Source: Pseudobutyrivibrio ruminis
GTDB lineage: Bacteria > Bacillota > Clostridia > Lachnospirales > Lachnospiraceae
Direction: 5' to 3'
DNA length: 64,000 nucleotides
Assembly (NCBI GenBank): GCA_015057305.1
Contig: SVES01000007.1
Location: 32,991 to 96,990 of the forward strand
Positions 44,871 to 48,129 of this stretch are shown here, one piece after another; position 1 is the first letter of the stretch, and every line of letters begins with the position of its first letter. The translations under genes were made by a program, and so were the position numbers. The notes below the pieces were generated by a model. It had not been told where the DNA came from. It made no database searches and saw only the letters and a list, made by a program, of their open reading frames with translations.

Positions 44871-44883
44871 GAAGGAAGATAAT

Positions 44884-46065
44884 ATGACATATCAAGCATT
44901 TTTGATTAAATATTCAGAGATTGGTGTAAAGGGTAAGAATCGATATGTTTTCGAGGACGCTCTTGTTCGCCAGATTAAAAGAGCCCTTGACAGCGTTGAG
45001 GGACATTTTATCGTAAAGAAGCAAAGCGGAAGAATATTTATTTCTGTAGAGGGTGAATACGATTATGATGAAGCTGTAGATGCTCTGCAGCATGTGTTTG
45101 GAATCAGTGCAATTTGCCCTACTGTAGTTGTACCAGATGAAGGCTTTGATAAGCTTGCTGAGGCTGTTATAAAGTATGTGGATGAGGAATTTGAAGACAA
45201 AAATTTCTCTTTCAAGGTTATGGGTCGCCGTGCTAACAAGCAGTATCCTATGACATCTATGGAAGTGGCTTCTGAAATAGGTGCCAGACTTCTAGAGGCT
45301 TTTCCTGAGCTGAGTGTAGATGTACATCATCCAGATAGAATAATCTATGTAGAAGTAAGAGAGAATATGGCTATTTATTCTACTGAAATTCCAGGACCAC
45401 ATGGTATGCCCGTAGGCACAGCTGGTAAGGCTATGTTACTTCTTTCAGGAGGAATCGATTCTCCAGTTGCAGGCTATATGATTTCAAAGCGTGGTGTTAC
45501 ACTTTCAGCTACATATTTCCATGCACCTCCATACACATCAGAGCAGGCAAAGCAAAAGGTTGTGGATTTAGCGAAGCTTGTTGCTAAATATTCTGGTCCT
45601 ATTGATTTACATATTGTTAATTTTACAGATATACAGCTATATATCTATCAGCAATGTGCCCATGAGGAGCTTACAATTATCATGCGCCGTTACATGATGC
45701 GCTTGGCAGAGCATTTTGCAAAGGAAAACGATTGCATTGGGCTTGTAACAGGGGAGTCTATAGGCCAGGTAGCAAGTCAGACAATGCAGTCTCTTAACTG
45801 TACAAATGCTGTATGTTCATTGCCTGTATACAGACCTCTTATTGCATTCGATAAGCAGGATATTGTTGATATTTCTGAAAAAATTGATACCTATGAGACT
45901 TCGATTTTGCCTTACGAAGATTGCTGCACTATATTTGTAGCCAAGCATCCGGTTACAAAACCAAAGCTCGAGGCCATTGAAAAGCATGAGCATCTATTAG
46001 ATGAAAAGATTGACGAATTGATGCAACAGGCTATTGATAGTGTCGAGGTTATAAAAGTAAGATAA
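44884..46065 (+). CDS. thiI: tRNA 4-thiouridine synthetase
   Basis: The 393-residue protein has a THUMP domain (residues ~60-165, with FKVMGRRANKQYPMTSMEVASEIGARLLE), the PP-loop MLLLSGGIDSPVAGYM, and SIGQVASQTMQSLNCTNAVCSLPVYRPLIAFDKQDI. It lacks the C-terminal rhodanese domain of the E. coli enzyme, as in B. subtilis. ATG 44884 follows AAGAAGGAAGAT; the ORF-track start 44848 lies inside the desulfurase gene. The adjacent desulfurase is its likely sulfur donor. Confidence 0.96.
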   Translation: MTYQAFLIKYSEIGVKGKNRYVFEDALVRQIKRALDSVEGHFIVKKQSGRIFISVEGEYDYDEAVDALQHVFGISAICPTVVVPDEGFDKLAEAVIKYVDEEFEDKNFSFKVMGRRANKQYPMTSMEVASEIGARLLEAFPELSVDVHHPDRIIYVEVRENMAIYSTEIPGPHGMPVGTAGKAMLLLSGGIDSPVAGYMISKRGVTLSATYFHAPPYTSEQAKQKVVDLAKLVAKYSGPIDLHIVNFTDIQLYIYQQCAHEELTIIMRRYMMRLAEHFAKENDCIGLVTGESIGQVASQTMQSLNCTNAVCSLPVYRPLIAFDKQDIVDISEKIDTYETSILPYEDCCTIFVAKHPVTKPKLEAIEKHEHLLDEKIDELMQQAIDSVEVIKVR

Positions 46066-46094
46066 AAAATGAGCTTTGCTTTAACGCAAAGCTC
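46063..46094 (-). terminator. Terminator of the HPr-like gene
   Basis: On the minus strand GAGCTTTGC-GTTAAA-GCAAAGCTC is followed by ATTTTTTATC. On the plus strand the hairpin could also mark the thiI end, but without a T-run. Confidence 0.7.
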
Positions 46095-46124
46095 ATAATT
46101 ATTACACCTTTAGAAAGGATTGAA

Positions 46125-46355
46125 TTAAACAATATAATCCTTTAATGTTGACATAACATCCTCAGCATCACCCTCAGCGTGTACTGTAAGGTCGATAGGC
46201 TTAGATAAATCAAGGGAGAAAATACCCATGATAGACTTAGCATCGATTACATAACGTCCGCTAACAAGATCAAAATCATAGTCAAACTGGCTAATTGTGT
46301 TAACAAAAGACTTTACCTTGTCAATTGAGTTAAGAGAAATTTGAACTGTTTTCAT
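46125..46355 (-). CDS. HPr-like protein lacking the phosphorylatable histidine
   Basis: This 76-residue protein fits the HPr fold and size: KTVQISLNSIDKVKSFVNTISQFDYDFDLVSGRYVIDAKSIMGIFSLDLSKPIDLTV. The Ser46 region KSIMGIFSL is conserved, but the active-site segment (GIHARPA in HPr) reads SIDKVKS, so phosphotransfer by His15 is impossible. It resembles a Crh-type regulator more than a PTS carrier. ATG 46355 follows GGAGGAGG by nine bases; the ORF-track TTG 46373 is in that ribosome site. It is divergent from mtaB. Confidence 0.82.
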   Translation of the reverse strand: MKTVQISLNSIDKVKSFVNTISQFDYDFDLVSGRYVIDAKSIMGIFSLDLSKPIDLTVHAEGDAEDVMSTLKDYIV

Positions 46356-46474
46356 TCTGCTTGCCTCCTCCAAAGATTTTTATTTAAAATTATACTAAAA
46401 CAACGGTTGGCAAAAGTCAATAAAGTCTTAGATTTTTCAATATTTTTAAACATATTTTAGAAAGGTTTATATTA

Positions 46475-47794
46475 ATGAAAAAAGCAGCATTACATAATCT
46501 TGGTTGCAAGGTTAATGCATATGAAACTGAAGCAATGGAAGAGCTTCTCAGAAAAGATGGCTTTGAAATAGTAAGCTTTGATGATAAGGCTGATGTTTAT
46601 GTTATAAATACCTGCTCTGTCACAAACATAGCTGATAGGAAATCCCGGCAAATGATTCATAAATGTAAAAAACTTAATCCAAATGCATGCGTTGTTGCCG
46701 CAGGCTGTTATGTTCAGAATTTTGGCAAGGACGTAGCAGATGAGCTGGGAGCAGATATTATTCTTGGAAACAATAAGAAGAATGATTTAGTGCCTAAGGT
46801 TCATGAATTTTTTGCTTCCATAGATAGAGAAAAACCAATACTTGATTGGTATGATATCAATGATGGAAGTGTTGATTATGAGGATATGATAATTGAAAAA
46901 GATTCGGAGCACACTAGAGCTTTTGTAAAGGTTCAGGATGGTTGTAATCAGTTTTGCACATACTGCATTATTCCATTTGCACGAGGAAGAATAAGAAGTC
47001 GCCAAATACCTGATGTTGTAAAGGAAATTACTGGTCTTGCAAAGGCAGGCTATAAAGAGGTGGTAATCACTGGAATTCATCTTAGCTCCTTTGGCAGTGG
47101 CACAGAGTTTAATCTTGCAGATTTATTAGAGGCAGTTGAAAAAATTGACGGTATAGAGCGTATTAGAATGGGTTCATTGGAACCACAAATCGTTACAGAG
47201 GATTTTGCAAAAAGAGTATCGGCTCTTTCAAAGATTTGCCCTCATTTCCATTTATCTCTACAGTCAGGTTGTGACAGCGTGCTTACTCGAATGAACAGAA
47301 AATACACAGCTGCAGAATATACAAAGGGCGTGGAAATTCTTAGAAAATATTTTGATAACCCTGCAATCACAACAGATATTATAGTTGGCTTCCCTGGGGA
47401 GACAGAAGAGGAATATAACACCACATTAGCTTATGTTGATGAAATTAGGTTTGCTGAGCTGCATGTATTTGCATACTCTAAGAGAAAAGGTACTCGAGCA
47501 GCCACAATGCCTAATCAGATTACAAATGCTGTTAAAAAGGAAAGAAGCTCAAAGTTAATTGCTCAGGGCAATAAGGAAAGTGAGCTTTTTAAAAAATCCT
47601 ATATGGGCAAGTGGGTAGAAGTGTTGTTTGAGGAAAAAATCAAGATTGATAATAAGGATTATTACGTAGGCTTTTCTAGAGAATATATTAAATGCATAAT
47701 TCTTGCAGAAGACAAAGATTTATCAAATCAAATATTATCTGTAAAGGTCACAAAATTTACACCAGATTATGAGTACTTGATTGTTGAAATTTAA
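46475..47794 (+). CDS. mtaB: tRNA t6A37 methylthiotransferase
   Basis: This 439-residue protein has the N-terminal MTTase cluster site (LGCKVNAYETEAM, NTCSVT, AAGCYVQ), the radical-SAM CNQFCTYCIIPFARGRIRSR, and LSLQSGCDSVLTRMNRKY, with a TRAM-like C-terminus. It converts t6A37 to ms2t6A37 in tRNA. It is divergent from the HPr-like gene, with a weak AAAGG ribosome site. Confidence 0.95.
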   Translation: MKKAALHNLGCKVNAYETEAMEELLRKDGFEIVSFDDKADVYVINTCSVTNIADRKSRQMIHKCKKLNPNACVVAAGCYVQNFGKDVADELGADIILGNNKKNDLVPKVHEFFASIDREKPILDWYDINDGSVDYEDMIIEKDSEHTRAFVKVQDGCNQFCTYCIIPFARGRIRSRQIPDVVKEITGLAKAGYKEVVITGIHLSSFGSGTEFNLADLLEAVEKIDGIERIRMGSLEPQIVTEDFAKRVSALSKICPHFHLSLQSGCDSVLTRMNRKYTAAEYTKGVEILRKYFDNPAITTDIIVGFPGETEEEYNTTLAYVDEIRFAELHVFAYSKRKGTRAATMPNQITNAVKKERSSKLIAQGNKESELFKKSYMGKWVEVLFEEKIKIDNKDYYVGFSREYIKCIILAEDKDLSNQILSVKVTKFTPDYEYLIVEI

Positions 47795-47862: not shown

Positions 47863-48129
47863 ATGGCAGATTTAAGTAACACACAATATTTTAAAGTTCA
47901 AAAAGAAAATCCCGTTGGGGTTAAGGACGTAATTGAGCAGGTTTATAGTGCTTTATCAGAAAAGGGGTATAATCCTGTTAATCAGATTGTGGGATACATT
48001 ATGTCTGGTGATCCTACTTACATTACTAGTCATAATAATGCTAGAAGTCTTATTATGAAAGTTGAGCGTGATGAACTTGTAGAGGAGCTACTCAAAGAGT
48101 ATATTGAAAGCGAAAGTTGGAATAAATAA
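47863..48129 (+). CDS. ireB: IreB family regulatory phosphoprotein (UPF0297)
   Basis: This 88-residue protein has family features [10 protein letters not shown] at the N-terminus, with the Thr phosphosite region of IreB, and [29 protein letters not shown]. In Enterococcus it is a substrate of the PASTA kinase IreK. ACGAGG precedes the ATG. It overlaps ruvX by one base, a conserved Firmicute arrangement. Confidence 0.93.

Follow-up and report, generated by a model that had tools for sequence, protein, structure and literature searches.

A Short-Loop HPr Paralogue of Clostridia That Keeps the HPr Kinase Serine Block and Lacks the Phosphotransfer Site

Introduction

Is an HPr-like protein that lacks His15 and keeps the Ser46 region, when it is met in a clostridial genome, a Crh, or does it belong to a type of its own? 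The question is raised by a small gene in a 64,000-nucleotide stretch of Pseudobutyrivibrio ruminis DNA (the whole of that stretch is called the window here), the product of which an earlier note had described as a Crh-like regulator. For the Clostridia that dominate gut and rumen, current accounts of catabolite control proceed by analogy with Bacillus, that is, from HPr kinase (HPrK), HPr or Crh, and CcpA. A clostridial Crh is not new, because HPr, HPrK, Crh, and CcpA orthologues have been reported in Thermoanaerobacterium (PMC3526391). No mention of a loop-deleted, class-wide HPr subfamily, independent of the phosphotransferase system (PTS) and encoded next to mtaB, turned up in the open-access literature searched. 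We refer to the P. ruminis protein as the short-loop HPr.

Results

The short-loop HPr gene (positions 46125 to 46355 of the window, minus strand, stop codon included) starts with an ATG at 46355 and encodes an HPr-fold protein of 76 residues, which begins with MKTVQISLNSIDKVKSFVN and carries the segment DAKSIMGIFSLDL further on. A strong ribosome-binding site, GGAGGAGG (46364 to 46371, minus strand), precedes the ATG with a spacer of 8 nt. Downstream, a terminator hairpin (46069 to 46096, minus strand; 11-bp stem, −17 kcal/mol, z −8.2) lies between the gene and the convergent thiI gene for tRNA 4-thiouridine synthase (44881 to 46065, plus strand), and on the other side mtaB, for the tRNA t6A37 methylthiotransferase (46475 to 47794, plus strand), is transcribed divergently. 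Identical short-loop HPr proteins are present in P. ruminis DSM 9787 and in other Pseudobutyrivibrio records.

Both profile score and fold place the protein in the PTS-HPr superfamily. The Pfam PTS-HPr profile (PF00381; cut-off, 23 bits) matched with 36.1 bits (E 6.8e-9), over residues 16 to 75 only, so that the His15 segment was left unmatched. Scores were far under the cut-offs of both the HPr and the Crh-type NCBIfam models (28.9 bits versus 47.9 for TIGR01003 and 33 bits versus 123 for NF010354 [PRK13782]). An AlphaFold2 model, computed from an alignment of 55 orthologues, had the HPr fold (pLDDT 92.5). Its best matches among solved structures were HPrs, including the HPr of the HPrK complex 1kkl, with a Foldseek E value of 1e-5 and a TM score of about 0.7 against the closest; Crh stood lower in the list.

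When the protein was aligned with HPr and Crh of B. subtilis (sequences identical to the PDB chains), its beta1-alpha1 loop fell short of theirs by about 3 residues, and His15, Arg17, and Pro18 were all gone. Residues 7 to 19 (SLNSIDKVKSFVN; 46299 to 46337, minus strand) comprise the remnant of the active-site loop and the start of helix 1. The Ser46 block is intact (DAKSIMGIFSL), and the serine in it, Ser41 in the protein's own numbering (codon TCT, 46233 to 46235, minus strand), corresponds to HPr Ser46 and is the predicted site of phosphorylation by HPrK. What the earlier note had read from the letters, an HPr-like protein with SIDKVKS in place of the His15 segment and with a conserved KSIMGIFSL, was therefore borne out as quoted. 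Since the short-loop HPr is without His15, Arg17, and the full loop, it cannot carry phosphate for the PTS, and its identification as an ordinary PTS HPr was rejected.

The same combination of losses and retention was seen throughout the group. Among 156 sampled HPr-like proteins, 64 were of the short-loop type; none of these had His15 or Arg17, and all 64 had Ser46, while Ser46 was lost in 5 of the 65 HPrs that bear the histidine. Across 78 close orthologues, Ser41 was invariant, as was the block DAKSIMGIFSLDL, apart from a single conservative substitution in its final position; DAKSIMGIFSLD, K15, F17, V18, N19, D29, S32, R34, and Y35 were also invariant. The codons of the Ser block vary synonymously among these orthologues, and because its residues are fixed while the codons differ freely, the constraint acts on the protein. 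A pseudogene or frameshifted HPr was rejected on these grounds, the reading frame being intact and near-universal. Within the same genomes, the mean identity of the short-loop HPr was 53%, compared to 40% for a His-less paralogue with a full loop, and the short-loop protein had the higher value in 42 of 45 genome pairs. Conservation that extends beyond the Ser block, and exceeds that of the full-loop paralogue, suggests a second binding face or a partner besides HPrK. Diverged second short-loop copies within one genome were observed at eight loci; all keep the serine and are much changed elsewhere.

The distribution of the protein was then considered at three taxonomic levels. A match was present in 197 of 200 Lachnospiraceae genomes, nearly all of different genera, with those listed mostly at 70 to 99% identity; a chance reading frame was rejected on this count, together with the conserved Ser block and the predicted HPr fold. 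Orthologues were present in 101 of 146 genomes of the order (E under about 1e-11) and in 143 of 245 genomes of the class (E under 1e-12). The short-loop HPr belongs to the ancient core of proteins of this class and is not an oddity of a single clostridial genome. The earlier note had set a type mainly described in Bacilli against its appearance here in a clostridial genome; almost all members of the family carry the protein, and it is common in the class as a whole. In a sample of the phylum, only two families outside the class had it, with four loci each; these proteins branch within those of the class, as expected of transfer or of a misplaced lineage.

The earlier note had tied its reading to an HPr kinase in the genome, and one is present (PF07475, 238.8 bits; contig C41, 12085 to 12588), as a complete open frame with the Walker A motif GESGIGKS. 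In the class sample of 245 genomes, 135 had both proteins, 8 had the short-loop HPr only, 59 had HPrK only, and 43 had neither (odds ratio, 12; Fisher p 3e-12), a test that counts genomes and not independent events and ignores kinship. Co-occurrence was weak in the smaller sample of the order (96, 5, 37, and 8 genomes, respectively; p 0.02). Of the 8 genomes with the short-loop HPr only, 7 belong to families represented in the sample by another genome that does have HPrK, and the remaining one is 62% complete. HPrK itself does not need the short-loop HPr, because 59 of 194 HPrK genomes are without it. Enzyme I was not found above the cut-off in 15 of 28 genomes carrying the short-loop HPr. The short-loop HPr follows HPrK and is independent of enzyme I and phosphotransfer. 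In genomes in which enzyme I was not found, four HPrs with an intact GLHARPA were also observed.

The Pseudobutyrivibrio genome has three further HPr genes (L001, L002, and L003). L001 (contig C46, 1489 to 1746) encodes a protein with His15 and with Lys at position 46, and an enzyme I match lies nearby on the same contig; it is a PTS HPr that HPrK presumably cannot switch. Four other HPrs without Ser46 resemble it. L002, with both His15 and Ser46, follows a GlmM-like reading frame for a phosphoglucosamine mutase. L003 (contig C57, 1498 to 1746) has no His15, keeps Ser46, and has a full loop (SMEATPIA); it lies directly behind a WhiA-like frame, which itself follows a RapZ-like C terminus. We take these gene names, and the match to the B. 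subtilis crh locus, from a reading of the proteins and from general knowledge. The positional counterpart of Crh in this genome, if there is one, would be L003. In related Lachnospirales, the counterpart of L003 mostly reads GLEARP, with Glu15.

A quick tree of 87 columns resolved the short-loop proteins as a single branch (SH-aLRT 99) in which the P. ruminis protein groups with 63 others; the loop deletion itself also marks this group. B. subtilis Crh and L003 both fall outside the branch, at places different from each other. The short-loop HPr and the full-loop, His-less HPr of the clostridial hprK/whiA locus (L003; the Glu15 type in most Lachnospirales) reside together in the same genomes. 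They share the lack of His15, the presence of Ser46, and an HPrK genome but differ in loop length, branch, and degree of conservation, and the full-loop protein alone has a Crh-type locus.

Compared to Crh of B. subtilis (PDB 2rlz, 1mu4, and 1zvv), the short-loop HPr has the same fold, likewise has no His15, has Ser46 in KSIMG.(M/F)SL, and occurs in an organism with HPrK. Crh, however, keeps a loop of full length with Arg17 and Pro18 (QARPA) and is encoded behind whiA, whereas the short-loop HPr has a shortened loop without Arg17 and is encoded between thiI and mtaB. With the separation in the tree and a locus that is not rapZ-glmR-whiA-crh, orthology to Crh was rejected. The term "Crh-like" in the earlier note applies loosely, to an HPr of the HPrK-only type, and does not extend to the protein being a Crh. 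Its relation to HPr (PtsH) is similarly mixed: the fold, the Ser46 block, and the closest solved structures are shared, but His15, Arg17, and the full loop are not, and the short-loop HPr occurs in genomes without enzyme I.

Next, the CcpA side of the Bacillus pathway was examined. Among the CcpA-like proteins encoded in the genome, the top score was 192.6 bits, versus a cut-off of 442, a strict threshold that was reached in 0 of 40 genomes. The arginine of the YDIG..AMR stretch is, by our own placement, presumably R304 of B. subtilis CcpA, and this motif was absent from the nine LacI-family proteins tested (taken as stretches, from an assembly that is 89% complete). As a control, the top CcpA-like proteins of sampled genomes were compared: of 7 genomes lacking the short-loop HPr, 6 had YD(I/M/L)G...R in this protein, and of 6 genomes carrying the short-loop HPr, none did. 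This small comparison of top homologues covers 13 genomes, one at 89% completeness, and is confounded by phylogeny. CcpA makes its key contact with HPr-Ser46-P through R304 (PMC4591507). The motif contrast speaks against a plain co-repressor role of the Bacillus type. Twelve loci listed from this comparison cover genomes without the short-loop HPr, mostly with a motif-bearing CcpA-like protein, and genomes with it, without such a protein.

Discussion

On the sequence comparisons above, the short-loop HPr is probably a dedicated substrate of HPrK that, once phosphorylated, targets something other than classical CcpA. In such a scheme, an HPr paralogue would have shed the site of PTS phosphate transfer (His15, Arg17, and the carrying loop) and kept the block that HPrK recognizes. 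High levels of ATP and glycolytic intermediates would lead HPrK to phosphorylate Ser41, and the phosphate would be removed as these levels fall; the Ser41-phosphate form would bind and regulate its partner and so report carbon and energy supply. We infer that HPrK phosphorylates the protein, which way the signal runs, and that a partner exists, along with what it may be. A CcpA of the Bacillus type is an improbable partner in this lineage; Crh of B. subtilis has targets besides CcpA, and by analogy a metabolic enzyme or a different member of the LacI family may be bound here. A point against the substrate model is that the kinase may recognize loop residues now missing from the short-loop HPr, and the model offers no explanation for the linkage to mtaB.

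The short-loop HPr does not look like a Crh copied from Bacillus; it looks like a dedicated protein for signalling carbon status, of a kind so far undescribed. We advance more tentatively, as a possibility that falls somewhat short of an even chance, a class-wide and PTS-independent output branch of HPrK (in Lachnospiraceae, other families of the order, and many of the class), in which the short-loop HPr and a conserved partner of its own replace the HPr-Ser-P/CcpA pair of Bacilli and classical clostridia. If a dedicated short-loop HPr does operate without classical CcpA, the analogy with Bacillus is wrong at the output step, and a protein placed with the phosphocarriers by profile searches is a regulator without carrier function. 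It would then offer a small, near-universal handle (one serine and one partner) on carbon sensing by fibre-degrading gut bacteria.

The protein could instead be a Crh in function, its phosphorylated form serving as a co-repressor with CcpA on cre sites, as in Bacillus, alongside phospho-HPr. The HPr fold, the absence of His15, a KSIMG.FSL segment almost as in Crh and HPr, the HPrK gene, and an abundance of LacI-family proteins in the genome are all as such a role would have them. We nevertheless regard it as unlikely: unphosphorylated His15 itself adds to HPr-CcpA binding (PMC3526391), and it is missing here along with Arg17 and the loop; the low CcpA score and the lack of YDIG..AMR in the LacI-family proteins point the same way, as do tree and locus; and the promoter region between the divergent genes had no cre-like operator at ≤2 mismatches. 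Another role within reach of HPrK would be that of a decoy or competitor, which occupies the kinase and tunes phosphorylation of the true HPr without a partner of its own. Retention of the kinase-binding face alone, the strong co-occurrence with HPrK, and the invariant Ser block would suit it, but tuning the PTS is pointless in the genomes without enzyme I, and residues beyond the Ser block are also extremely conserved (K15, N19, D29, S32, R34, Y35, and D49), which points to a further interface, so that this role seems a poor prospect.

A dedicated HPrK substrate also has to be weighed against a function untied to HPrK, in which the Ser41 region is kept for the fold or for another interaction, for example in translation or tRNA modification, and the co-occurrence is phylogenetic. 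The co-occurrence is indeed uncorrected for phylogeny, and the tRNA-modification neighbours are conserved: mtaB is divergent to the short-loop HPr gene in 69 of 78 orthologous loci, and the thiI family stands tail to tail with it in 49 of 78. Divergent transcription, however, leaves no operon with mtaB, and an operon tie between the two was rejected. All 64 short-loop proteins, diverged copies included, have the serine, and class genomes without HPrK are mostly without the short-loop HPr as well (43 of 51). We consider a function of this kind improbable.

Another small phospho-signalling protein is encoded nearby, in that a gene for an IreB-family regulatory phosphoprotein (positions 47863 to 48129 of the window) lies just downstream of mtaB.
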